Positions 1-13,010 of a stretch of 55,716 nt of DNA are shown here, piece after piece. Numbering within the stretch: position 1 is the stretch's first letter; each line of letters begins with the position of its first letter. This DNA comes from Bacteroidia bacterium. Lineage in GTDB: Bacteria; Bacteroidota; Bacteroidia; Bacteroidales; Prolixibacteraceae. The notes beneath the pieces were generated by a model, which was not told where the DNA came from, did not search any database, and was given only the letters and a program-made list of their open reading frames with translations. Location: assembly GCA_026391295.1 (NCBI GenBank), contig JAPLDS010000025.1:1-55716 (forward strand), in the 5' to 3' direction. A program made the position numbers and the translations under genes.

Positions 1-1961
1 AAATCGCCTTCCTGTTTAATAATATTTAGGGTTTGTTTGGCTTTTGATATTTCCGTTTCAAGCCATTTTGCATCAATTTCTTTTTGAACTGTTTCAGGAA
101 TAACAACTTCTTCAGTAAAGTTCAAATAAGGGAAAAATGCAGAAATAGTTACTCTTTCCGATTTGTCAACTTTCAAAGTTAAATCTACATCGCTACCTTC
201 TGGTAAAAGTGATGGCAATTGTTCACCTGAAATTATAACATCGAAAACGTGTTCGTTATAAATTGCTCGTGAACCTTCTGAACCATAATCTCCTTGATAA
301 ACAGGAATTTTAATAAAGTCTGTTTTTGAGCCGGGGTTGATTTGCTTTTGAGTTTTTAATCCGTTTGCAATTCCAGTAGCTGGTGTAGTTTGGTTTTTTT
401 CAAGTCCTTTTATTGGTCGGAAAACAATTTTTCCACTTGCTTTACTCTTAATTTCAATACCAATATTGTAAGGCAAAGTTGCACTACCAACTTTTGAACC
501 TTGAATAATTGTAAAATCATTTGGTTCGCTTGGAATTAAGTCGCCTTGCTCATTGTAAACAAAAACATTAAAAGCATTTGCTTTGCCTTCGTTAAGTTTA
601 ACTTCAACCACTTCGCCTGATTCGTCTATTTGTACTTTCCCGCTTGACCAAGCCTTATCGGTTCTTACGACTTCTGCAAAGCATTTTTCAGGGATAGCAC
701 CTTTAGTTTTGTCTTTAAGTATTTTTATTGTAACAAACTCTTCATTTTCAACGGTTGTGGGTTCATAACCTAAACCAAGTTGAATTTTCGTTTTATCACG
801 TCCTTTTTCAATAATTTCGTCCGAAACATTTACGGTTGAAGCGTATAACGCTGCACCTTTTGCAACAACGGTCATTGGGTCGCAACTTGTATCAACCTTT
901 TCAGTAACCTGTTCCTTTAGCATTTTTCTCAATATGGGCGAATATGTTGGACCACCAACTAAAATTAATGCACCCAAATTGTTACCATTTAGATGGTTTC
1001 TTTTAAGTAATTCGTTACAAATAGTAATAGCTTTCTGGAAAATTGGGCTAACAGTTTTTCCCATTTCATTTTGAGAAATGGTAATATCTAATTCAAATTC
1101 ATTACCATCATCATCAGTTCCTGGTATGTCGCCTAAGTCAGATAAAATATTGTGAGTGTCTTTAAAGGATAATTGAATTTTAGCTTCTTCGGCATAGTGC
1201 TTCATTGCATCACGCAAAACTTCTCTTTTAACATCATCGTTTATAATGCTGTCGATTGAAAAGTTCTTTTGCAGATACGGGATAATTATTTCATCAACAA
1301 TAGCATAGTCAATATTTTTACCACCTAAATAATTGTCTCCTTCGGTATCAATTACTTTCATAATACCATCTTCAACCTTTAGCAATGCTGCATCAAATGT
1401 ACCACCGCCAAAGTCGAAAACCAACCAAAGACCGTCTTTGCTTGTTGAATCTAAGCCATAAGCCATTGACGCTGCAATAGGTTCTTGCAATAACTCGCAA
1501 TGCTCAAAACCTGCAAGTTTTGCGGCTCTTGAAGTTGCATCTTTTTGATTTATAGTAAATTTGGCAGGAACAGTAATAACAATTGACTTAATTTCTTCAT
1601 CGGTAATAAATGATTTCAATTTCTTTAAAACTTCTGCTGAAAGTTCTTCCGAAGTAAAGTTCTTGTTCATATTGGAACTGCTGTATGTTTTGTCAGTTCC
1701 CATTGTGCGTTTAAATTCAATGAAAGTATTTGAGCTTTCCGCTTTAAAATCTTTCATTGCTTTTAGCTTATCTGCTTTCAATGCGTTAACCGCAGCATCG
1801 CCCGCTAAAATTGATTGTTTTTTATTAAAACTGATACAAGAAGACATTGTATCTTTCAAGGTGTCCGTTTTTTTAATAATTGGTTCACCGTTTTCCATTC
1901 GTGCAATACCGGAATTTGTTGTTCCTAAATCAATTCCGTAGTCAATTTTTGTCCTTGCCAT
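1..1961 (-). CDS. Hsp70-family (DnaK-like) chaperone, 3' end outside window
   Basis: An open frame runs from ATG at 1961 to the window edge (653 codons, no stop). The N-terminus has the Hsp70 phosphate-1 motif YGIDLGTTNSG (residues 8-18). Phosphate-2 VFDFGGGTFD is at 181-190, and the adenosine motif LVGGPTYSPIL is near residue 335. A beta-rich segment near 545-620 resembles the substrate-binding domain, leaving about 150 extra residues between the ATPase domain and it; the protein is therefore larger than ordinary DnaK. The gene starts 22 bp after the GrpE-like gene. Sitting with J-like and GrpE-like genes, it is the ATPase of a self-contained chaperone set rather than the housekeeping DnaK. 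Its client is unknown. Confidence 0.9.
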   Translation of the reverse strand, partial: MARTKIDYGIDLGTTNSGIARMENGEPIIKKTDTLKDTMSSCISFNKKQSILAGDAAVNALKADKLKAMKDFKAESSNTFIEFKRTMGTDKTYSSSNMNKNFTSEELSAEVLKKLKSFITDEEIKSIVITVPAKFTINQKDATSRAAKLAGFEHCELLQEPIAASMAYGLDSTSKDGLWLVFDFGGGTFDAALLKVEDGIMKVIDTEGDNYLGGKNIDYAIVDEIIIPYLQKNFSIDSIINDDVKREVLRDAMKHYAEEAKIQLSFKDTHNILSDLGDIPGTDDDGNEFELDITISQNEMGKTVSPIFQKAITICNELLKRNHLNGNNLGALILVGGPTYSPILRKMLKEQVTEKVDTSCDPMTVVAKGAALYASTVNVSDEIIEKGRDKTKIQLGLGYEPTTVENEEFVTIKILKDKTKGAIPEKCFAEVVRTDKAWSSGKVQIDESGEVVEVKLNEGKANAFNVFVYNEQGDLIPSEPNDFTIIQGSKVGSATLPYNIGIEIKSKASGKIVFRPIKGLEKNQTTPATGIANGLKTQKQINPGSKTDFIKIPVYQGDYGSEGSRAIYNEHVFDVIISGEQLPSLLPEGSDVDLTLKVDKSERVTISAFFPYLNFTEEVVIPETVQKEIDAKWLETEISKAKQTLNIIKQEGD

Positions 1962-1983
1962 ATTCTTATTTTTTACATTTTTA

Positions 1984-2892
1984 CTATTCGCCAACGCTTA
2001 CTTCAACTTGTGCAGCCTGAATCATTACACCTTTAAAGTTAACTTGTGGTTTGATTATTCTTGTGATTACTTGTTCGCCTTGTTTTAAGTTTTCATCAGG
2101 GCGGAAATTTGCAGAAACTTTCATTCCTTGGTCATATGGTTGATTAAGCATATCAATCATTTCATACCCATTTGCTTTGAAATTATCTTGAATACGCTCC
2201 ACCGATGCCGAAAGCTGTTTCAATCCTTTGGTTTCAGAATCCATATTACTAAGGTTTTTATGAATACGAATAATTTCATCTGCTACTTTCAATGCCAATG
2301 AATGGTCAACTTCTTCTGCTTTAGCAGATGATGTTTGTCTTTCTGCATTCATCAACTGCATTTGAGTATCAAGCAATTTAATTAGTTGTCCGTCAAGTTT
2401 TATTTGCTCGTCTCTCAAGGTTTCAGAAGTCTTTTTTATTTGGTCTGATAAGCCAGTTTTCTCTTTACTCAATTGCTTTTTAAGCCAACCAAAAAGCAGA
2501 ACAGACAAAAGAGCAATGAATAAAACTGCAATAATCCAGTATAGCGTATTTTTGCCAACCTTTTCATTTAATGTTGAGAGGTCTGCACTTGCTTTTTCGC
2601 TTGTTTGTTGAATTTTAACACCTAAATTATCTGCGATTGTCTGCAAATTGTTATTTGTGTTTGCCAAATTATTTTTCAAAATATTGAGACTATCAGCGGT
2701 AGCTGATAGTTTTTTTTCAATTTGTTGAATGTTGGAATTTGCAGTGTTTAACTGTCCCGATAACTTGATATTTGCTCCTTCAAGTTTTTCGATACTAGTT
2801 TGTAATTGTTGTATTGTGTCGTTTTTAGCTTGTGCAAATGAAGCAATGCTAAAAATTCCAATAGCTGTTATAGTTAAAAGTAGTTTTCTCAT
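1984..2892 (-). CDS. Membrane-anchored coiled-coil protein with GrpE-like C-terminal domain
   Basis: The protein has 302 residues. An N-terminal signal-like segment (1-20, ending ASFAQA) is followed by a coiled coil (about 25-115) rich in Gln, Asn, Leu and Lys. One transmembrane helix (117-136, core WIIAVLFIALLSVLLFGWL) comes next, then a second coiled coil (about 140-190). The C-terminus (about 195-302) reads like a degenerate GrpE: an NGYEMIDMLNQPYDQG segment recalls GrpE's conserved G-x-x-FDP turn, and the ending IQAAQVEVSVG recalls the RPAxVxVS beta-strand. I infer a nucleotide-exchange factor for the adjacent Hsp70, tethered to the inner membrane with its N-terminal coiled coil outside. 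The start overlaps the previous gene's stop (ATGA). The GrpE assignment is by eye and needs profile or structure support. Confidence 0.7.
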   Translation of the reverse strand: MRKLLLTITAIGIFSIASFAQAKNDTIQQLQTSIEKLEGANIKLSGQLNTANSNIQQIEKKLSATADSLNILKNNLANTNNNLQTIADNLGVKIQQTSEKASADLSTLNEKVGKNTLYWIIAVLFIALLSVLLFGWLKKQLSKEKTGLSDQIKKTSETLRDEQIKLDGQLIKLLDTQMQLMNAERQTSSAKAEEVDHSLALKVADEIIRIHKNLSNMDSETKGLKQLSASVERIQDNFKANGYEMIDMLNQPYDQGMKVSANFRPDENLKQGEQVITRIIKPQVNFKGVMIQAAQVEVSVGE

Positions 2893-4610
2893 TTGATAAT
2901 TCGTATTAAGGTGTTTAAAACTGATTTTATTGATTGGTTTACAAGGTGTTTGTCTTTTAAAAGTTCAACAAGTTTTGGCGAATATTTGTAATAGATTCTG
3001 ATGAAACCACGACCAAATGCCGTTTTTGAAAGAGTGTTATCTCTAAATTTTCGTAATTCTATCACTTGTGGATGTTCATAACTACCATATGCCATAGTCG
3101 CAATGTAGCAACCTCCGCTACTGCTGCTTGAACTACTTTGTCTGTTTGCTACTTGGTTAAGCTGTGATTGAATATTTGAGATGGTTGTTTTATTTTGGTT
3201 AAATCTGTTACGAAGTTCATAAACCATATCCATACCCGACATAAGATTTATAACCTCTAAAGCAGATGAAATGGTAGTTGGAAGTGTAAATAGTTTTGTT
3301 CTGTCATATTGCAATCCGTTTTGTGCTTCATTCACAACAGAAATCAAAGCATTTAAAGCATTATTTACTACTGCACTACTTAGTTTTGAATAGAAATCAT
3401 CGGTAGAACCCAACGCAGTTTTAATGTTGATTAATTTTGGTTTGCAAGAAACAACAAGGTCTTTTGCATTAGAAATTGTGTCAGGTATGTTTTGGAAGCG
3501 TTGCAGTTTGCTTGCAACAAATTCAAGGTCTTCTTTTATTTTACTGTGTCTATTTCTTTCTTCACTATCATTTATCCACTCTTGAACATTTTCAATATTT
3601 TCATCTAAACGACTTTTTGTTTGTCCAGTTGGATTAATGGCTTTAGCCATTTTCATAACTTTCATTGCAGATTCTCCGGGGTCAAAATCATTATTCCCTT
3701 GAAGCTCATTAAAAAATTCAATAGCACATTGCAGAATTTCATTTGCCAATTTATTGGCAATCATTTGATATTGAACATTATTTGCACCCCAAACATTTTT
3801 GAGAAACACTAAATCCTCTTTTGTGTTTTTATACAATTCCTCGCCATACTCTTCGGCATCATTGGGGTTATCGTCTCTTTTTTGCTTGGTTTTTTCAATT
3901 TGATTCTCGATATTATTTATAGGTCGGTCGGTAAACTTTCCTGAAACATATTGTCGAATTTCATTAGGGAATGAATTAAAAGCACTGATTAATTGGCTTG
4001 ATTTTATTCCATTTGGTTTGTTTAGGTAAGGCTTAATGATTTGCATTACTTCATCTGCAAATTCTTTAAGAATTGTTTCTCGATTAATTGAAATGCCTTC
4101 ACCAATTACCGTTTTAATAAAACTGTCGCAAGCATCAGACATTATCAACTTACCCTTTAATTCAATAGATGCAGTAAACTTTTCGGGGTCAAATGAACCG
4201 TTATAAGTAACAATTCCAAGTTGTAGCGTCGAAAGGTTACTTATTGCAGCAAAATTTTTAACCGTTACTGTTGAATCTTTTAAAGTTTTCTCCCATATCT
4301 CGGTCGCTTTTTCAATATGACCATCTTTCAAATTGTTTAATGCAGCTTCATCAATATGTCCGCTGTTTAAAAACCAAAATAGAGCATAATGGACTTTATT
4401 TTTTGCTTGTTCTATTTTACTCGCTGCTTCTTGTACCTTTTCTGTGCTACGAACAACTTCTCCGAAAAACGGGAAGTCATAGTCAAACGCCTTAGTTTTT
4501 CCGACTTCTGCAAATCTCTTTATGGTTGCAATTTGCTTTTGCAGTTCCTTTTCGGTTGAGTTTCCAAAAAGTCCAAGCGTTCTGTAAGGATTATTTTTTA
4601 CTGCATTCAT
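2889..4610 (-). CDS. J-domain-like protein with CFI-box C-terminal domain
   Basis: The chosen start is ATG at 4610, giving MNAVKNNPYRTLGL; an in-frame TTG at 4625 would add five residues. The N-terminus NPYRTLGL followed by a helical region resembles the opening of J-domains, but no HPD tripeptide is visible. The next 80 residues (FDYDFPFFGE, ALFWFLN) match a DnaJ-like family I know beside Hsp70 genes. A long helical middle leads to a Ser-rich linker. The last ~75 residues begin GGCYIATMAYGSYEHP and continue LRKFRD and YYKYSP, the CFI-box C-terminal domain found on varied bacterial proteins. It heads the chaperone operon (J-like, GrpE-like, Hsp70), so it is probably the co-chaperone or client adaptor. 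The CFI-box function is unknown. Confidence 0.8.
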   Translation of the reverse strand: MNAVKNNPYRTLGLFGNSTEKELQKQIATIKRFAEVGKTKAFDYDFPFFGEVVRSTEKVQEAASKIEQAKNKVHYALFWFLNSGHIDEAALNNLKDGHIEKATEIWEKTLKDSTVTVKNFAAISNLSTLQLGIVTYNGSFDPEKFTASIELKGKLIMSDACDSFIKTVIGEGISINRETILKEFADEVMQIIKPYLNKPNGIKSSQLISAFNSFPNEIRQYVSGKFTDRPINNIENQIEKTKQKRDDNPNDAEEYGEELYKNTKEDLVFLKNVWGANNVQYQMIANKLANEILQCAIEFFNELQGNNDFDPGESAMKVMKMAKAINPTGQTKSRLDENIENVQEWINDSEERNRHSKIKEDLEFVASKLQRFQNIPDTISNAKDLVVSCKPKLINIKTALGSTDDFYSKLSSAVVNNALNALISVVNEAQNGLQYDRTKLFTLPTTISSALEVINLMSGMDMVYELRNRFNQNKTTISNIQSQLNQVANRQSSSSSSSGGCYIATMAYGSYEHPQVIELRKFRDNTLSKTAFGRGFIRIYYKYSPKLVELLKDKHLVNQSIKSVLNTLIRIIK

Positions 4611-4660
4611 ATCTGTTGAATTCAAAATGTTATTGTTCTTAATCGTGGGTAGGTAAAAAA

Positions 4661-4720
4661 TTGGCTCTTTTGGCTTTGCGAAGGGTCAGTTTGTGTGTCG
4701 GGCAAAGCCAAATGTGCCAA
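4661..4720. repeat. Near-perfect inverted repeat upstream of the chaperone operon
   Basis: Arms 4661-4679 and 4702-4720 are complementary at 17 of 19 positions, with a perfect inner 10 bp (TTGGCTTTGC / GCAAAGCCAA). The spacer is 22 nt. The repeat lies 51 bp upstream of the J-like start. As RNA it would form a strong hairpin in the leader of the chaperone operon; as DNA it could be an operator or a dispersed intergenic repeat. No T-tract follows on either strand, so it is not an obvious terminator. Confidence 0.65.
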
Positions 4721-4892
4721 TTGTGCGTAGGCAGAAAAACAAAAAAATGCGGGTGGGGCAAAAATTAAATCTTTCCGGGTCGGATAGTGTGTAGTCCTGT
4801 TACATTTTATGTCTGCCTGTATCGTCATTGTCATTATATTTATTCTTTCTAACGTCTGTTTATCAGGGTTGCAGTGTCTTTTTACCATTGCT

Positions 4893-5029
4893 TACAACGT
4901 GCCCGCGCTTGCTGTTCGGTGGCGGTTTTAACACACAAAACTTACCACGAAGCACTAATGTTTGCATACCTGCTTTCTTGTCCAACGAGCCACAAACCCG
5001 CCACTGACAGCAAACGCGTGTTATCGGTT
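4893..5029 (-). repeat. attC-like imperfect palindrome (cassette recombination site)
   Basis: The two ends are complementary over about 35 nt each. On the plus strand the left arm (4905-4929) reads CGCGCTTGCTGTTCGGTGGC then GGTTT, and the right arm (4994-5017) contains AAACCCGCCACTGACAGCAA. Pairing is interrupted by single mismatches and one extra base, like the extrahelical bases of attC sites. The outermost bases are AAC (4895-4897) and GTT (5020-5022), the invariant core of attC R boxes. The outer arm gttatcggtt (5020-5029) is the exact complement of aaccgataac at 9591-9600. The length fits the 57-141 bp attC range. The R boxes do not match RYYYAAC/GTTRRRY beyond the core, so this could instead be another class of folded intergenic repeat. 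Confidence 0.5.
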
Positions 5030-5048
5030 TGTTCCTTTTCTCGTCATG

Positions 5049-5417
5049 TTACTTTTTCAAAATTAATATTGTCGCAATAGTTCCAATTAGCACAAGACCA
5101 CACACTACGAATAAAAGTGTTTTCAACAGGTTTATTTCCTTGTCTTGTTTGTCTAAACGACTTGGGAAGTCAATAGTAGAAAGAGTACTTGTCAAAGTTT
5201 CTGTTGCTTTTATCAATTGCTTATGAGGGTCTAAAATTTTGCTTACATCTTCTGTAACACTTGTCAAATGTGTATTAAACGAAGTTTGTAATTGTGTTGC
5301 AGTTTTCACAGCTTGTTCAGCTACATTTTTTGATTGGGCAACATGCTCAACTGCGCTTTGCAGTTTAGATATTTCGCTATTCATTGATTTTAAATTGTCG
5401 TCTAATTCTTTAAACAT
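5049..5417 (-). CDS. Small coiled-coil protein with C-terminal membrane anchor
   Basis: The protein has 122 residues. Residues 1-98 are predicted by eye to be a long amphipathic coiled coil (KSMNSEISKLQSAVEHVAQ and similar heptads). A single hydrophobic helix (about 100-119, LLFVVCGLVLIGTIATILIL) and a KK tail follow, giving a tail-anchored topology with the coiled coil in the cytoplasm. I recognise no family. Its start overlaps the helicase stop by 8 bp, so the two are translationally coupled. It may place the helicase-nuclease at the membrane, paralleling the membrane-anchored GrpE-like protein of the next gene set. That role is inference. Confidence 0.75.
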   Translation of the reverse strand: MFKELDDNLKSMNSEISKLQSAVEHVAQSKNVAEQAVKTATQLQTSFNTHLTSVTEDVSKILDPHKQLIKATETLTSTLSTIDFPSRLDKQDKEINLLKTLLFVVCGLVLIGTIATILILKK

Positions 5418-8400
5418 ATTCTTTTAGTATTTTTTTATTAATTGTTACGAAGTGATTTAAAACTTGTTTTGACAAAACACTTTGAATGTTTTTATGATGA
5501 TTTGCTAATGAGTTTACATCTTTTTCTTTAATGCAATTCTCAACTTGATTGAGGATTTTGTCAAATTCTTCCAAAGGAAATCCATTATCAATAATGTATA
5601 TATCTTTTGTTCTGCTTAATAAAGCTGAATTATCAGTATTGTTTATCATTGTGGCTGAATAGTACTGAAGTAATGAAATTACAGGATTTTTATTATACGA
5701 TTCCAAACTCCTTCTTGCCGAATTTTCAAGCTGTCTTAATTGGTCATTATTTATTGCCTTATTGGAGAAATATTCAAATACTGAAAAATCTAACTTGCTA
5801 CCAAATTCTGTTACGTCTCTAATTTCATCAACAAATCTTGAATCAAAATAATCATTAACCGTTTGAAGGAACATTGCATTACCGATATTTTCAGCCTCTT
5901 GCTTTGATTTCCCTAAATTAGTGGCCTTAATTGTTTCTGAAATTGCTTTTTCAATTGTGTCAGTCATATTGTTTAGTGCAGTTTCTCGTTTGCTGAAAAC
6001 ATTATCATATGTAAAATCAATTAAAGTGTTGATGCTATTACGCAATGCTGTTCTTTCGCTTCCATTACGAGCATTCTGCATTAATGAAGTTACATAGTTT
6101 TCAGGGTAATATCTTCTAAAATGCGTATAAAGATTTTGATAAATTTCTTCGGCTGTTTGATTTTGACAAATTGCATTTATTGATTTCGCACCGTAATCAA
6201 TTGTATAATCTTTTACTACACCTAATATTGACAAACGGTAAATAATTTTGAACGTATCTTGTTCCTGCCTTACTTGTTTAAATAACACTTTTAAATCATT
6301 TGTTTGTTGTGCAGAAAAAGTTATTACATTACCATAAGTTCTTCTGTAATTTGTTTCAAGGTTTATTATAAAATCATTGTCACTTTGACAATAGTTTGTT
6401 GAGTTTTTGACCAAAGAATAGTCGAATAATGGATTAAAATATTGATTTAGATACTCTAAAACTTGTTGAACACCATTGTTTTCTAGGCCAATTGTAATTA
6501 CGTTTGTTTGATTAATTGGTATTTTGCTAATGATGAATTCTACGCCTTGCTTTTCAGGCGTAATATTTACATTTTGCAACCAGTCTATTAAACTTAAATT
6601 TTTTGGATTATTATTTTTAACAAATTTTGTTATTGTATTTAATAAATTTAAAGCTTCAATGTCGCTACACATATTATTTCCTTGTGTAGATATTTGCAAA
6701 TTTGAAATAAAAATAAATCCGTATTTTTGACCAAATTCAGCTCCGCTAATATAAATTCTAGTTGGGAATTCACTTGGCCAGGGTTTGCTTAATTTTATTT
6801 CCTTTCCTAAATTAGAAAAAACATCGTCTTGTGTTTGGTCTTTATTTGATGTATGAGGAAATGTAATTCGGTCTAAAAGTTCAACTGTAATGCTTTTTTC
6901 ATAATCGCCTCCTTTAAAAGAGTTAAATAAAAATGTGTCTTGAATATTTCGTGCTACCGAAACCATTTTGCCTTTTGAATTTGGCACTAATAAATTGTTA
7001 CAATGTAAAATATAACAAACTGCATTTTTTCTATCTCTTCCTGCTCGACCTGCTTCTTGATAAAAACCTTCTATTGAAATTGGATGGGTAATGTGTAAAG
7101 TAAAACGAATATTGGGCTTATCAATTCCCATTCCAAAAGCCTTAGTAGCAACTAGTAAAGTTATTTTGTTACTTTTAAAATCGTCTTGAACTTGCTCTAA
7201 TGAAGCACTATCTCCGCTTCCATAATATTCGCCAATTAAATGCGCAACATCAGGAAATTGTTGTCTTAAATAGGTTGCAATGTGTTGTACTCCGAAATTT
7301 CCCGTACCTGAATATGGGCAAAAGATAATTCCACAATTGGAATTATTTCCTTGATATTTAATGAAGTCAGAAAATGAGATTGCATTACATTCTCTCAAAT
7401 GAGGTTCAGAAATTAAATCATTTTGTAATATATTCAAAAGACCTTGTTTCTTTGCTTCAAAAACGGAATTGTAAATAGTCCAAAAATTGTTTCCTGCACC
7501 TATGTTAATTGCTGTAATGTTTTTAATTTTAAACTTTAATTCTTTTCTTTCTAACTTTTCGGGTCTGATAATATCGCTATTGTTTTGTAGACCTACTTCT
7601 CGTTGCACATCACTTAATACATCAAAAGAGGCGGTTCCTGTAAGTCCTAATGTGGGGATATTTTCGCCATTATGTCCTGAAAAACAAAATATCCTTGAAT
7701 TATCACCAAGCTTTAAATAAGCCGTTCTGAAATCGTGTCCCCATTCTGAAACACAATGAGCTTCATCTATTACGCAAAAAGCAAAATTTCTAGAATTGGC
7801 TCTTACACTTCCTATTTTAGTTCTGAAATCATTAATTACAAAGCGTTCAGGAGAAACAAAAGCAAATAAGCAATTACCATTTACAAATTTATTTGTGTTT
7901 GCTTCCTTTTCTTTGGCTGACAATGTTGAATTAATATATGTTGTAGCGTCAATGAAAACATTTTTAAGGTTTTCGTTTTGGTCTTTCATTAAAGCTTTAA
8001 TTGGGTCAACAACAATTATTAAACCTGCCTGCAGAAGTGATGCAACTTGATAAGTTAATGATTTACCAGCACCTGTAGGTAAAAGTGCAATTGGATTTCT
8101 TTTTTGTAACGCTTTTGATAATATTTCAATTTGTCCTTCTCTAAAACTTGTTTTTCTAAAAAAAGATTGCAAGAAAAAATTCAGGCTTTCAGTTCTATCA
8201 TCTTCTTTGTTTTCAGGTGCATTTTCGTATTTAATGAATTTATGAAAGTTGAAAGTTCGAGTATATTCTGTATGATGAATAGAACGAATTACAATCGTAT
8301 TTTGTACTAAACTTTGAGTTGGTCGATTTAGAAAAGTTGAATAATTTAGAATAGAAATATCTATAACTAAATCATAATTGCGAAAGTCAGAATTAGCATT

Positions 8401-9546
8401 GAAAATTTGACAGTTATTATCTGCATTGAGTTTTGCGTTAGCAAACTCAAGGGTATTAAATATTGTAATTTCCAAATTAGGCAATTGTAATTCTTCCCCA
8501 TTTTCGTTTTGCAATATTGATAAATGCTTTATCTGTAATAGCAAATCATCAATTGCAATTTTGCCACAAGGAATATCTCTTTCTATGATTGCAATATTTA
8601 GAGTTTTAGCATTAATAAAAGTCTCTCCATTTTTATTCTTTATACCACTTTTGAGGGCTTTTAAAAATGCTTTTTGCACTCTTGATATTCCGAACGGGGA
8701 AAGATATAATTGCAAATAATCCATACCAATTTCATCATAAAACAGTGGCTTTTCAATGTTTTGTTTGAAAGTTCGAATATAGGGATGTTGAAAATAAGCA
8801 CTTATTTTGTTTTTTTGAATTTCAGTCAAATTATTTACTTCATTTGTCCAAATTCTAATTGTGTCAAAATTATTTTGGTCTGCAAAAAAATCTCTTCTTT
8901 GGTCTTTTATCGATTGTGCTGGTTCTTTATGCTGTTGCCCATCAATTTCAATTACAACCCCGTTTCTAAAGCCCTCAGATTTTGGAAGTTGAATCAAAAA
9001 ATCAATATTTTGGTGCATGAATAAATCTTCTGCTTGACTTCCAACAACAGATGCCATCGTTCTTTGAAGTTGCAAGAGTTGATTTGTGTTATCTCCGAAA
9101 CGCAAAATTGAATTTATGAAAAAATCTTTTTCATATTGACTGCCTCCGTGTTCTTCCCAATTGTTGTATGTGTTTTCAGAGTTTAATTCTTGCGTTCTAC
9201 TGTCGGCAATTACCAAGCACTTTAAAAAATCAGTAGAAGCGGATTTTTTTAAGTCAAAAGAAATAGTTCCGATTTCATTTGTTTTTTCAGAAGTCAAATT
9301 GAATATACGTTCAAATTCTCTTTCTATAAATATGCTCGAAATTGTCGGAAGTCCTCTTGAAATTTGATTGTCAAGAACCGACAATATGGGATGTTCAGAT
9401 TCATTGTCAGAATTGTTAATCGTTGGATTTTGACAATAAAATTTGGATAAGTTCGTCGCTATTTCAAACCAATAGTTTTTGTCAACAGAGTTTTCAATGT
9501 TTTTTGCAACTCCTTGTAAAATATGTCCTGCGAAAAATTCTGTCAT
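5410..9546 (-). CDS. RecQ-like helicase fused to DUF559/Vsr-like PD-(D/E)XK nuclease (1378 aa)
   Basis: The middle is a RecQ-type superfamily 2 helicase. A FREGQIEIL Q-motif-like segment (468-476) precedes Walker A LLPTGAGKS (488-496), the DEAH box (594-597), motif III TGTAS (636-640), a VATKAFGMGIDKPNIRF block (799-815) and motif VI QEAGRAGRDR (830-839). Ahead of it, residues 180-235 read IDFLIQLP, then VIEIDGQQH (198-206), then QRRDFF and IRIWTNEV. This is the D...ExDGxxH...RD pattern of DUF559/Vsr-type endonucleases, with D182, E200 and D202 as candidate metal ligands. Residues 860-1378 match nothing I recognise. RecQ itself is about 600 aa, so this is a dedicated large enzyme, likely acting on foreign DNA. 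It is the first gene after the recombinase. Confidence 0.85.
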   Translation of the reverse strand: MTEFFAGHILQGVAKNIENSVDKNYWFEIATNLSKFYCQNPTINNSDNESEHPILSVLDNQISRGLPTISSIFIEREFERIFNLTSEKTNEIGTISFDLKKSASTDFLKCLVIADSRTQELNSENTYNNWEEHGGSQYEKDFFINSILRFGDNTNQLLQLQRTMASVVGSQAEDLFMHQNIDFLIQLPKSEGFRNGVVIEIDGQQHKEPAQSIKDQRRDFFADQNNFDTIRIWTNEVNNLTEIQKNKISAYFQHPYIRTFKQNIEKPLFYDEIGMDYLQLYLSPFGISRVQKAFLKALKSGIKNKNGETFINAKTLNIAIIERDIPCGKIAIDDLLLQIKHLSILQNENGEELQLPNLEITIFNTLEFANAKLNADNNCQIFNANSDFRNYDLVIDISILNYSTFLNRPTQSLVQNTIVIRSIHHTEYTRTFNFHKFIKYENAPENKEDDRTESLNFFLQSFFRKTSFREGQIEILSKALQKRNPIALLPTGAGKSLTYQVASLLQAGLIIVVDPIKALMKDQNENLKNVFIDATTYINSTLSAKEKEANTNKFVNGNCLFAFVSPERFVINDFRTKIGSVRANSRNFAFCVIDEAHCVSEWGHDFRTAYLKLGDNSRIFCFSGHNGENIPTLGLTGTASFDVLSDVQREVGLQNNSDIIRPEKLERKELKFKIKNITAINIGAGNNFWTIYNSVFEAKKQGLLNILQNDLISEPHLRECNAISFSDFIKYQGNNSNCGIIFCPYSGTGNFGVQHIATYLRQQFPDVAHLIGEYYGSGDSASLEQVQDDFKSNKITLLVATKAFGMGIDKPNIRFTLHITHPISIEGFYQEAGRAGRDRKNAVCYILHCNNLLVPNSKGKMVSVARNIQDTFLFNSFKGGDYEKSITVELLDRITFPHTSNKDQTQDDVFSNLGKEIKLSKPWPSEFPTRIYISGAEFGQKYGFIFISNLQISTQGNNMCSDIEALNLLNTITKFVKNNNPKNLSLIDWLQNVNITPEKQGVEFIISKIPINQTNVITIGLENNGVQQVLEYLNQYFNPLFDYSLVKNSTNYCQSDNDFIINLETNYRRTYGNVITFSAQQTNDLKVLFKQVRQEQDTFKIIYRLSILGVVKDYTIDYGAKSINAICQNQTAEEIYQNLYTHFRRYYPENYVTSLMQNARNGSERTALRNSINTLIDFTYDNVFSKRETALNNMTDTIEKAISETIKATNLGKSKQEAENIGNAMFLQTVNDYFDSRFVDEIRDVTEFGSKLDFSVFEYFSNKAINNDQLRQLENSARRSLESYNKNPVISLLQYYSATMINNTDNSALLSRTKDIYIIDNGFPLEEFDKILNQVENCIKEKDVNSLANHHKNIQSVLSKQVLNHFVTINKKILKEYV

Positions 9547-9697
9547 TTATTTTATTTTGAATTCATGTTGTGTAGTATGTCTCTTGGAATAACCGATAAC
9601 TCGTTTATAGGTCTGTTGAAGTCAGTTGTATGCACCATATTTAGGGTGAATAGGCCTGTAAAGGTGTCATTCTTATTTTAAGGGTGAAAGTAGTGAT
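9547..9697 (-). other. attI-like junction between recombinase and first cassette
   Basis: The motif aaccgataac (9591-9600) is the exact complement of the outer arm of the attC-like palindrome at 5020-5029, marking a plausible cassette boundary (minus strand GTT at 9600-9598). Between it and the recombinase stop are two direct copies of agggtgaa (9643-9650 and 9681-9688), spaced 38 bp apart. They resemble the accessory integrase-binding direct repeats of attI sites. The helicase start lies 45 bp beyond the boundary. The interpretation depends on the recombinase acting on this site. Confidence 0.4.
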
Positions 9698-10654
9698 TTA
9701 TTTGTACAAATCATCAAACGGAGACCTGATCTTCTGTATACTCTTCTCCGTTACATGCGTGTATATTTCGGTCGTCTTGCTGCTTCTGTGACCTAATAAT
9801 TCCTGAATATACCTTAAATCCGTACCCGACTCTAATAAATGGGTGGCATACGAATGCCGAAGCCAATGTAACGTTACCGGCTTAGATATCCTCGCCTTCC
9901 GAAGCGCTATCTTTAAAACACTCTGGATGCTTTTTTCACTATACTGCTCACCCGGATACTGCCCCTCAAATAACCAAACCCTAGGCCGGTAATACCGATA
10001 GTATTCCCTCAAAAGCTCAATTAGATTGTCGGAAATAGGCACCACCCGGTCTTTTCTCCCCTTCCCATTAATTATTAATAATAAATGTCGCTTAGAATCG
10101 ATGTGGACTGGCCTTAAATTTAATAGCTCACCTCGTCTCAACCCACAAGCATAGATTACTGTTAACATCATCCGATGCTTCATGTTTGTTGAGACCTTTA
10201 AAATTAGTCCAACTTCCTCCTTGCTCAGCACGTTCGGTAGCTTGTGCTCATGACGTGGACGATCTAAATGCTCGGTTATCAATAAGGACCCTCGGATAGT
10301 TTTGAAAAATAACTTTGCTGCATTTATTGCCTGGTTCTGGTACGAAAAACTTAGATTCCGAGGAATCATGTATGAATTAACAAATTGCCGCATGTCATTA
10401 TTCGTCGCTTCTGAACTAGTCTTTGGCTTGATAAACCTAAGAAATATTGTGATCGCCATGATATACGTCTTCACCGTAGAGTCACTATATCGCTTTTGCT
10501 CCATCCATTGCTTAAATGTTGCGATTTCCTCAATAGTGTCAAAATCTAATGAGGGCAAGGAATGTCTAACTGCTTGGTTTTTGGGTTCTTCATTTGATGA
10601 AGAATCAAGCATCGTATTAACCAATTCTTTTGACTTGATTCTCAGAGTTGCCAT
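9698..10654 (-). CDS. Tyrosine recombinase/integrase (XerC/IntI-like)
   Basis: The protein has 318 residues. A SAM-like core-binding domain (about 40-125) is followed by a catalytic domain with the full active site: R173 in GLRRGE, K198 in GKGRKD, H263-x-x-R266 in HWLRHS, H289 in LLGH and nucleophile Y298 in IYTHV. The ending VTEKSIQKIRSPFDDL resembles the IntI C-terminus (RSPLDAL). The extra helix that defines true IntI proteins, between the lysine strand and HxxR, is absent. It lies just upstream of the cassette boundary and is transcribed towards the cassettes, as in reverse integrons. It may be an unusual integron integrase or an ordinary Bacteroidetes island integrase. Confidence 0.92.
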   Translation of the reverse strand: MATLRIKSKELVNTMLDSSSNEEPKNQAVRHSLPSLDFDTIEEIATFKQWMEQKRYSDSTVKTYIMAITIFLRFIKPKTSSEATNNDMRQFVNSYMIPRNLSFSYQNQAINAAKLFFKTIRGSLLITEHLDRPRHEHKLPNVLSKEEVGLILKVSTNMKHRMMLTVIYACGLRRGELLNLRPVHIDSKRHLLLIINGKGRKDRVVPISDNLIELLREYYRYYRPRVWLFEGQYPGEQYSEKSIQSVLKIALRKARISKPVTLHWLRHSYATHLLESGTDLRYIQELLGHRSSKTTEIYTHVTEKSIQKIRSPFDDLYK

Positions 10655-11038
10655 CTATTGAAAGTTGAATTCTTGTGACCTACTCACTGAGCGGCGAACC
10701 TGATCTCAGTTAAAAATCTGTACAATAGCTAGTTGCTTAAATCTTGTTGGGCAATTGATTCCGTTGTGCTTCGACTTTTATTGTTGAGGTTTTAGTCCCT
10801 TGATTAGCTGATTACTTAAACCAATTAAATATACCACTTTAAAAACTCGAAATTCTCAAATAATAGCAAAATGATTAAATAGATGTCGAATTGACTGAAA
10901 AAAATCAAAATTGCTTACGAATTTATTTTGTGTTCAGAATATTATTCTTAATTTTGTCGTCAAGTTTAGAATTAACACACACAAAAAGCGTTGTGATTGA
11001 ACAAAATAAACTTGATTATCGTTATCTGTTAAAAAAGA
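10655..11038. other. Intergenic region between recombinase and amino-acid operon
   Basis: This is A+T-rich and has no open frame of interest. It should contain the divergent promoters for the recombinase (minus) and the branched-chain amino-acid operon (plus, start of leader at 11039). I see no convincing TAnnTTTG box at a useful distance. It may also hold the right end of the island, but no direct repeat of the recombinase-side sequence is apparent. Confidence 0.5.
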
Positions 11039-11104
11039 ATGAAAAACATACTTTCACATAACCTTCTACTCGTGGTCATCCTAATTCTCGTCTATCTCGG
11101 CTGA
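11039..11104 (+). CDS. Branched-chain amino-acid leader peptide (21 aa)
   Basis: ATG at 11039 opens a 21-codon frame ending TGA at 11102-11104. Thirteen residues are Leu, Ile or Val, and codons 9-18 (LLLVVILILV) are ten in a row. It lies 87 bp upstream of ilvD and is followed by an alternative RNA fold and a terminator, the classic arrangement of ilv/leu attenuators. Ribosome stalling on the run when charged Leu, Val or Ile tRNA is scarce would set the choice of RNA fold. The peptide itself probably has no other job. Confidence 0.85.
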   Translation: MKNILSHNLLLVVILILVYLG

Positions 11105-11172
11105 GGAAGGTTTACTATTTGTATGATGAAACATATAAAAGCCTTTCTCAAAACCGAGAAAGGCTTTTTTTT
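11061..11172 (+). promoter_or_regulatory. Transcription attenuator of the ilv-leu operon
   Basis: Four pairing segments are visible. Segment 1 (11061-11067, ACCTTCT, leader codons 8-10) pairs with segment 2 (11105-11111, GGAAGGT). Segment 2 region (11103-11110, GAGGAAGG, overlapping the leader stop codon) pairs with segment 3 (11142-11149, CCTTTCTC) with one G-U. Segment 3 also pairs with segment 4 (11156-11164), forming the terminator. A ribosome stalled in the Leu/Val/Ile run (11063-11092) would cover segment 1 and allow 2:3 antitermination. A ribosome at the stop codon would cover segment 2 and allow 3:4 termination. This predicts induction under branched-chain amino-acid starvation. Confidence 0.8.
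11141..11172 (+). terminator. Attenuator terminator hairpin
   Basis: The stem GCCTTTCTC (11141-11149) pairs with GAGAAAGGC (11156-11164) across the loop AAAACC. Eight T follow (11165-11172), and A residues upstream can extend the stem. It ends 19 nt before the ilvD ATG, so it controls the operon rather than ending one. Confidence 0.88.
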
Positions 11173-11191
11173 AAATTGAAATTTTAAGACT

Positions 11192-13010
11192 ATGAAGTTT
11201 AATCTTAGAAGCGAAACAACAACAATGGGCCGTCGAATGGCTGGGGCTCGTAGCCTCTGGAGAGCTAACGGAATGAAAGAAGAACATTTCGGGAAACCTC
11301 TGATCGCCATCGTTAACTCCTTTACGCAATTTGTACCCGGTCATGCCCATTTGCATGAGATCGGACAAATGGTGAAGGGTCTAATCGAGAAAGAGGGTTG
11401 CTTTGCAGCAGAATTTAATACCATCGCCATCGACGACGGTATCGCCATGGGTCACGATGGGATGTTATACTCGCTGCCATCACGCGACCTGATCGCCGAT
11501 AGCGTCGAATATATGATCAATGGTCATAAAGCCGATGCGATGATCTGCATCTCGAACTGCGACAAGATAACTCCGGGCATGCTGATGGCTGCCATGCGAC
11601 TCAATATCCCTTGTATCTTCGTCTCGGGTGGTCCAATGGAAGCTGGCGTAGTCGATGGTAAAAAATACGACCTTGTCGATGCAATGGTGATGGCTGCCGA
11701 TCCTTCGGTAGACGAAAAATTGCTTCTTCAAGTCGAACAAGATGCTTGTCCAACCTGTGGCTCATGCTCTGGAATGTTCACCGCTAACTCGATGAACTGC
11801 CTTACTGAAGCGTTAGGCCTTTCACTTCCCGGTAACGGAACTGTTGTGGCTACTCAAACTTTTCGAAAAAGCGGCTAAACGCTTAATCGAGATCACGGTT
11901 GACTATTATAAAAATGGGAACGAAAGTGTGTTGCCTCGTGCAATCGCTTCTCGCGCTGCATTTATGAACTCCATGACACTTGATATTGCCATGGGTGGTT
12001 CAACCAATACGGTGTTGCATATGTTGGCTGTTGCTCATGAAGCGGGTGTCGACTTTACCATGAAAGATATTGATAACTTATCGAGAAGAGTTCCTTGTAT
12101 CTGCAAGGTAGCTCCTAGCGCTCACTACCATATTCAAGATGTCAATCGCGCTGGCGGTATCATGGGTATCTTAGGTGAACTCGAAAGAGGTGGGCTACTT
12201 GATACTTCGGTGTCGCGTGTGACTGAAGGGACTCTTGGTGAGGCTATTAAAGCTTGGGATCTTCTTCGCTCTACCGCAGTGGATGATGCTAAAAATGTAT
12301 ATGGTTCGGCCCCTGGAAATATTGGTCGGAATTTAGTGATGGGTTCTCAAAATGCAATTTTTGCTGAGTTTGACCTTGATCGTGAGAAAGGGTGTATCCG
12401 TAGTGTGGAGAATGCCTATACCAAAGAGGGTGGTCTTGCTATTCTTTATGGCAATATTGCCCGTAAAGGGTGCATTGTTAAAACGGCAGGTGTCGATCCT
12501 TCGGTATTTCAGTTTAGTGGCGTAGCACGAGTTTACGAGTCGCAAGATGATGCCTGTGAAGGGATCCTTAAACGCCAAGTTAAAGCTGGAGAGGTAGTGA
12601 TCATCCGTTACGAAGGTCCGAAAGGTGGGCCAGGAATGCAGGAGATGCTTTATCCAACTTCTTATCTTAAAGCTTCTAAGCTTGATAAGGTGTGCGCGTT
12701 ACTGACCGACGGACGATTCTCTGGAGGTACTTCAGGGTTGTCAATTGGTCACGTGTCTCCTGAAGCAGCAGCTGGAGGAGAGATTGCACTAGTTCAAGAT
12801 GGCGATCGTATTGATATTGATATTTCACAACGTAAAATAGAATTAATTATCTCAGATCAAGAGCTGGAAGCACGTAAGAAAGCAGAAGAGGCGAGAGGTA
12901 AGATGGCTTATCAGCCTGCAAATAGAAATAGAATAATCAGCAAAGCCTTAAAAGCTTATGCTAGCCTTGTTGCTTCGGCAGATATGGGTGCAGTACGTAT
13001 TATAGACTAA
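11192..13010 (+). pseudogene. ilvD: Dihydroxy-acid dehydratase, broken by a frameshift
   Basis: IlvD dehydrates 2,3-dihydroxy-3-methyl(iso)valerate in valine, isoleucine and leucine synthesis. The first frame (11192-11878) runs from [20 protein letters not shown] through the Fe-S motifs [12 protein letters not shown] and [17 protein letters not shown] to [10 protein letters not shown], then meets a stop. The second frame resumes at 11859 with [17 protein letters not shown] and continues to the normal C-terminus, including [22 protein letters not shown]. Family members have six residues (pattern HANRKA) between GTVVAT and LFEKA; here only four nucleotides remain (11855-11858), implying a 14-nt deletion. 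Without it the protein would be about 611 aa, the usual length. It is either a true null in an otherwise intact operon or a sequence or assembly error. Confidence 0.9.

Follow-up and report, generated by a model that had tools for sequence, protein, structure and literature searches.

Two adjoining units on a Bacteroidota genomic island: a five-gene chaperone-kinase operon and a helicase-nuclease pair

Genes of the island

The window analyzed here comprises 55,716 nucleotides and is the whole of contig C36 in the 2.93-Mb, 81-contig assembly of a Bacteroidia bacterium of the Prolixibacteraceae (GCA_026391295.1, contig JAPLDS010000025.1); its relatives are Bacteroidota. At its left end lies an island in which, reading the minus strand from right to left, a tyrosine recombinase is followed by a helicase-nuclease, a small coiled-coil protein, a gap of about 430 nucleotides (nt) and then a J-like, a GrpE-like and an Hsp70 protein (table 1). 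The guanine-plus-cytosine content is 0.30-0.34 within the island versus 0.37-0.44 elsewhere in the window. An earlier note, made from the sequence of this DNA, had placed these genes on the minus strand beside the recombinase and regarded them as an island; we verified the positions, and the island setting is supported. The same note had joined chaperones and helicase into one defence module, whereas comparison with other genomes separates them into a five-gene chaperone-kinase operon, of which the window holds the beginning, and an independent helicase-nuclease pair.

Table 1. Features of the island at the left end of the window
Feature	Position	Strand	Evidence or remark
Hsp70, 5' part	3..1994; likely start 1961; ATPase domain about 831-1937	minus	PF00012, E=1.3e-64
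GrpE-like nucleotide exchange factor	1984..2892; transmembrane segment ~2503-2559; GrpE-fold domain ~1987-2460	minus	AlphaFold2 (AF2) model, Foldseek
J-like helical-repeat protein	2889..4625; likely true start ATG 4610; CFI-box 2907-3110	minus	NF041770, E=1.3e-22
attC-like palindrome, 127 nt, ends AACA...CGTT	4896..5022	minus	sits between helicase pair and chaperone operon
Small coiled-coil protein, 122 residues, one transmembrane segment	5049..5417	minus	overlaps helicase gene
RecQ-type helicase, 1378 residues	5410..9546; helicase core about 6997-8184	minus	PF00270, PF00271
DUF559/Vsr-like PD-(D/E)XK nuclease domain, N-terminal in helicase	about 8767-9066	minus	PF04480
Tyrosine recombinase, XerA/integron-integrase-like	9698..10654	minus	PF00589, E=6e-38

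The Hsp70 identity proposed in the earlier note is borne out, for the PF00012 match spans the ATPase domain and DnaK structures match residues 18-388 with E values to 4e-48. The domain has the actin fold, with its phosphate and adenosine motifs together with the catalytic residues, and T26, K95, E171, D194 and T199 are conserved in 76 homologues. Relatives of the protein begin with MART or MARS, which gives the equivalent start listed in table 1, while the C-terminus, about 190 residues, is lost at the contig end. Many members of the family end in short similar tails, which are possible docking peptides.

The GrpE-like protein consists of a hydrophobic N-terminal signal or transmembrane (TM) segment, a coiled coil, a TM segment and a C-terminal GrpE-fold domain, and at least one TM segment is present in all 68 homologues. 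Its AF2 model (pLDDT, the predicted local distance difference test score, 81.6) has the long helix, helical bundle and beta-wing of the GrpE fold, and each of the top 12 matches of a Foldseek search against the PDB is a GrpE or GrpEL1 structure (E down to 1e-5, probability 0.98-1.00). The corresponding sequence comparisons gave no significant profile match (PF01025 E=0.004, below cut-off; hhalign probability 3-4%), and a sequence-profile search of the PDB returned coiled-coil noise. The GrpE assignment of the earlier note is therefore supported by the structure search of a predicted model, the sequence evidence being insufficient by itself. In the nearest relative, locus L029, the gene is found in two open reading frames (ORFs; 10032-10911), reflecting either a sequencing indel or decay.

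The AF2 model of the J-like protein (pLDDT 88.6) matches helical-repeat proteins only, and its sequence-profile search of the PDB likewise gave coiled-coil noise. The protein ends in a CFI-box, and the C-terminus of its 68 homologues carries a TM segment in 43 and a CFI-like sequence in 17 cases, never both; this mutual exclusion suggests that the CFI-box may stand in for a membrane anchor.

The largest gene of the island encodes, as the earlier note had it, a RecQ-type helicase with an N-terminal DUF559/Vsr-like nuclease (PF00270, PF00271 and PF04480), in which D182, E200, D202, H206 and the Walker A and B motifs are invariant among nine homologues. The small membrane protein described beside it could also be confirmed as a coiled coil with one TM segment.

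The five-gene operon

One genome per species was scanned with the GrpE-like family, yielding 103 relatives, from which 80 loci were kept; several cultured Flavobacterium and Chryseobacterium isolates are among the carriers. The operon was recovered in 80 contigs, mostly of Bacteroidota, and in a plasmid. The operon runs from the J-like gene through the membrane GrpE-like, Hsp70 and kinase-AAA+ genes to TerB, and its recognized core genes lie on one strand and in identical order in 80/80 loci. All five genes were seen in 48 of these 80, the remainder being without one recognized gene or cut by contig ends. Median intergenic gaps are 2 nt (J-like/GrpE-like), 12.5 nt (GrpE-like/Hsp70), 110 nt (Hsp70/kinase) and 8 nt (kinase/TerB), with small variable genes inserted in the third gap; a second, divergent Hsp70 gene lies there, between the operon Hsp70 and the kinase, in L046, L065 and L087. 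Flanking genes are not common to the loci, apart from small operon parts.

The window holds the first three genes of the operon and ends inside Hsp70, and contig C81 of the same genome opens inside a kinase-AAA+ gene that is followed by TerB, so that the operon continues to the left of the window. Since L029 is 93% identical to the window in Hsp70 and 92% identical to C81 in both kinase and TerB, and since the ends of C36 and C81 map about 1.1 kb apart on L029, the two contigs are almost certainly, on this sequence comparison, two sides of one operon.

The fourth gene encodes a protein kinase domain (PF00069 E=5e-33) fused to an AAA+ domain (PF00004 E=4e-34). Lys39, Glu59, Asn145 and the DFG motif of the kinase are conserved, as are Walker A, Walker B and the arginine residues of the AAA+ domain, which is of the classical PF00004 type with lid_3. 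An [IV]GF motif, a possible docking peptide, ends nearly all members or lies close to their C-terminus. The TerB profile PF05099 is matched by 26/27 members of the fifth gene (best E=5.5e-6), the first member, at 21.1 bits, falling short of the cut-off of 24.4.

The spread of the operon is patchy: the GrpE-like family occurs in 7/396 genomes of the phylum, and among 18 genomes of the same genus a full-length match to the J-like protein is found in the genome of the window alone. This genome has its housekeeping set elsewhere, with DnaK on C68 and GrpE and DnaJ on C30, and the operon genes are thus extra copies.

Separation from the helicase pair

The earlier note proposed a single defence module, made up of the chaperones and the helicase-nuclease, in which the former may keep the nuclease inactive or set it free. 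This model is consistent with the adjacency of the two units on the same strand in the window and with the presence of both on plasmid pHALHY02, though on that circular plasmid at least 50 kb separates them. The independence of the two in other genomes, which had been named in advance as speaking against a single module, is nevertheless what we found. The window helicase occurs in 0/80 chaperone neighbourhoods (L074 has one generic helicase match), and in 8/8 of the best homologous helicase loci the coiled-coil ORF lies directly after the helicase with no chaperones there; the co-occurrence check advised in the earlier note thus revealed no linkage in any other locus. Among the 396 phylum genomes, strong matches to the helicase N-terminus (E<1e-15) are present in nine and the GrpE-like protein in seven, both being found together in the genome of the window only. 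The helicase is absent genome-wide from 9 + 17 further genomes with the operon or its GrpE-like gene, a count in which some genomes may figure twice, in which the second set includes the genome of the window as positive control and in which the operon set of G389 and L027 is partial at most. L029 has an unrelated 907-residue gene in the place of the helicase pair, beside a chaperone operon 92-93% identical to that of our genome, and the helicase is absent from its genome. Given also the palindrome and the gap of about 430 nt between the units, the single-module model is highly improbable, and inhibition of the nuclease by the chaperones is unlikely because helicase and chaperones are independent elsewhere. 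Adjacency on cassette-like islands can mislead, and the helicase pair is a separate unit. Judged from gene order, the coiled-coil protein is the partner of the helicase and not of the chaperones; the helicase of pHALHY02 is likewise followed immediately by a small gene.

In other genomes the helicase pair neighbours a type I restriction-modification (R-M) system and a DrmD-like helicase (L132) or a reverse transcriptase (L127), and a type I R-M system lies near it on the Salinibacter plasmid pSR56. Its RecQ core matches the PsyrT and DpdF models of PADLOC, as random control proteins also do, and no match to the helicase was found in viral contigs. Near the helicase homologue of L132 (14069-18615) we observed a 490-residue Hsp70/actin-like protein that has no PADLOC match and stands beside the DrmD-like SNF2 helicase.

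The spacer between the two units is single-copy in its own genome, and an ORF of 88 residues at 4622-4888 was rejected as a gene because it lies inside this spacer. Palindromes similar to that of the spacer, mostly 123-127 nt long, with the ends AACA...CGTT and with matched changes in their stems, occur next to or near the operon elsewhere. A scan of 1.33 Mb retrieved 26 of them versus seven in the reversed sequence at the same threshold, and 16 were examined. They lie on both sides of the 907-residue gene of L029 (4980-5138 and 7910-8033) and as arrays in L036 (16771-18829) and L087. On contig C81 (locus L126, G000:C81; 2343-2465) the element past the end of the operon is weaker (dG -21) and fell under the scan threshold. 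Rfam has no family at these positions, and the search for repeats within 1-12000 found weak short families and nothing stronger. By their shape and end sequences, the palindromes suggest a resemblance to integron attC sites, which we take as a candidate lead only. Since such an element separates the two units, these may be swapped cassettes. The elements also hint at integron-like cassettes in Bacteroidota; one of these would hold the whole operon of about 7.5 kb, far above the usual cassette size. The recombinase of the window scores below two curated cut-offs, reaching 203 bits against NF040815 (cut-off 220) and 207 bits against the integron integrase (IntI) profile TIGR02249 (cut-off 265).

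These features would also suit an operon that serves the mobile element itself, through stability, counter-defence or cassette handling, given the plasmid copy, the recombinases near a few copies and the attC-like palindromes. Yet most operon loci have no recombinase homologous to that of the window, and phage records contain no match to the GrpE-like protein; we consider a service of this kind decidedly improbable. The matches to Hsp70 in phage records are generic ones to the DnaK-type ATPase domain and nothing else.

Outside the island, the window contains the start of an ilv-leu operon, in which ilvD is broken into overlapping frames (11192-11878 and 11844-13010) by a frameshift or an assembly error (11192-13010). 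A hairpin ahead of it, at 11058-11173, has sub-threshold Rfam matches (PyrR and Thr leader) and is a possible attenuator of the ilv-leu operon.

Defence context and comparison with known systems

Several copies of the operon lie in or beside recognized defence systems. L049 contains BrxA, BrxB, BrxC, the five operon genes, two small genes and PglX in that order, and pHALHY02 has a BREX (bacteriophage exclusion) set beside the operon; the BREX core (BrxC, PglX, PglZ) is seen beside these two copies only and is not in the conserved operon core. GajA and GajB (Gabija) adjoin the operon in L028, a type I R-M system neighbours it in L066 and type IIG systems in L057 and L044, while our own genome has a type IV restriction enzyme downstream of it on C81. 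Given the company of BREX, Gabija and restriction systems, a conflict role for the operon is likely; the defence-type context claimed in the earlier note is therefore supported, but the role itself is unproven. The type IV, methyl-directed enzyme of C81 (L126, 2886-6246) is found in two frames (PDLC03658, E=1e-201 and 3e-32) together with a NUDIX-like gene, and three successive small gene pairs at L126:7475-9924 resemble by sequence toxin-antitoxin pairs of HigB/HigA or RelE type. At E<=1e-20, 119 PADLOC families were obtained from 94 flank proteins versus 33 from 89 random proteins, a crude control in which many of the random matches look like housekeeping helicases of RecQ/UvrD type. No model of PADLOC-DB 2.0.0 matched the Hsp70, GrpE-like or J-like protein, coiled-coil noise aside, and among openly licensed papers on the CFI-box and on Hsp70/GrpE/TerB defence systems we found none that describes the operon.

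We thus regard it as fairly probable that two independent cargo units adjoin on a mobile island, the five-gene chaperone-kinase operon acting in defence and the helicase-nuclease forming the other, and that they are neighbours because the same island collected both cassettes. In the mechanism that we propose, the GrpE-like and J-like proteins would hold a dedicated Hsp70 at the inner membrane, where a trigger relayed by TerB and the kinase would switch on the AAA+ ring; Hsp70 and AAA+, in a relay likened to that of DnaK and ClpB, would then take apart or sequester proteins, most likely those of a phage or else a host target. The helicase-nuclease would attack invading DNA on its own, with its coiled-coil membrane partner. 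More tentatively, and with some reserve, the operon may represent an undescribed anti-phage system widespread in Bacteroidota, with a membrane-tethered Hsp70-AAA+ effector under kinase and TerB control, which can be embedded in BREX and travels as a huge integron-like cassette.

Several observations weigh against this defence interpretation. The five conserved genes include no nuclease, toxin or obvious killing enzyme, and most of the scanned flanking proteins are not known defence genes. The C-terminal half of Hsp70, conserved inside its own family, matches by sequence no PDB entry and no known substrate-binding domain. Of 65 members of the kinase family, 39 have Glu and 19 have Asp at the catalytic-base position, so kinase activity is uncertain. 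Finally, the HPD motif between helices II and III is found in 0/68 J-like homologues, which makes a classical J-protein cycle doubtful. The alignment of the J-like protein with the J-domain is weak and restricted to helix I/II (hhalign probability 56%, E=1e-4, 22 columns), and the protein is absent from the PF00226 matches of its own genome. Thus, of the chaperone set described in the earlier note, a dedicated Hsp70 with its GrpE-like factor is supported, but 'J-like' is a generous name in view of this weak trace and the missing HPD.

A mobile operon for membrane protein quality control or stress, in essence an Hsp70-AAA+ disaggregase with TerB present in islands merely as accessory DNA, would account for conserved parts that comprise chaperones, kinase-AAA+ and TerB and no nuclease or toxin, for the membrane anchors, for a TerB family named after tellurite and stress resistance and for the many loci with no recognized defence gene nearby. 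However, the patchy spread described above and the copies inside one BREX operon and beside another do not suit such a role, and we consider it rather unlikely. Were the defence interpretation true, immunity would proceed by unfolding or disassembling proteins rather than by cleaving nucleic acid, and would have an Hsp70 cycle of its own at the membrane. A function would also be gained for families that have so far no annotation beyond CFI-box, 'septum formation initiator', Hsp70 family, AAA ATPase and TerB.

Among known systems, the helicase-nuclease pair resembles PsyrTA, DpdF, Hna and other helicase(-nuclease) defence proteins in its RecQ-type core and in the logic of combining helicase and nuclease, but differs from them in that a DUF559 nuclease is fused to the helicase and a coiled-coil protein is its dedicated partner; the matches to the models lie in the generic RecQ core. 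For the operon, the involvement of chaperones in phage sensing has a precedent in DnaJ and bNACHT25 (PMC12169576). The DnaK-DnaJ-GrpE machinery with ClpB has the same combination of Hsp70, J-like, GrpE-like and AAA+ proteins, whereas the operon copies are extra, membrane-tethered, provided with a kinase-fused AAA+ and accompanied by TerB. Type III CoCoNuT systems (PMC11090510) contain an Hsp70-like protein, and a Ser/Thr kinase and a p97-like AAA+ may be present in their extended operons; in contrast, McrB GTPase, McrC, HEPN and vWA are not among the conserved genes here, and the ATP-binding residues of Hsp70, described as degenerate there, are conserved. The GAP1-N2 GTPase-centred systems with an HSP70/GrpE theme (Kaur et al. 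2020, PMC7159879) are predicted conflict systems that, much like the operon, combine a dedicated HSP70 and GrpE, there with a DnaJ-domain protein, and have membrane-associated parts. They centre on GAP1 and TRAFAC GTPases and FNIII-DnaJ fusions and occur mostly in actinobacteria and firmicutes, whereas the operon, in Bacteroidota hosts, brings together kinase-AAA+, TerB and a J-like protein that lacks HPD; the conserved genes at the reference loci contain no GTPase family, and none is apparent among recurrent neighbours. Published chaperone precedents exist, and none has the gene set of the operon. We regard the operon as a variant of conflict systems centred on chaperones, and consider the chance that it is a new kind to be substantial.

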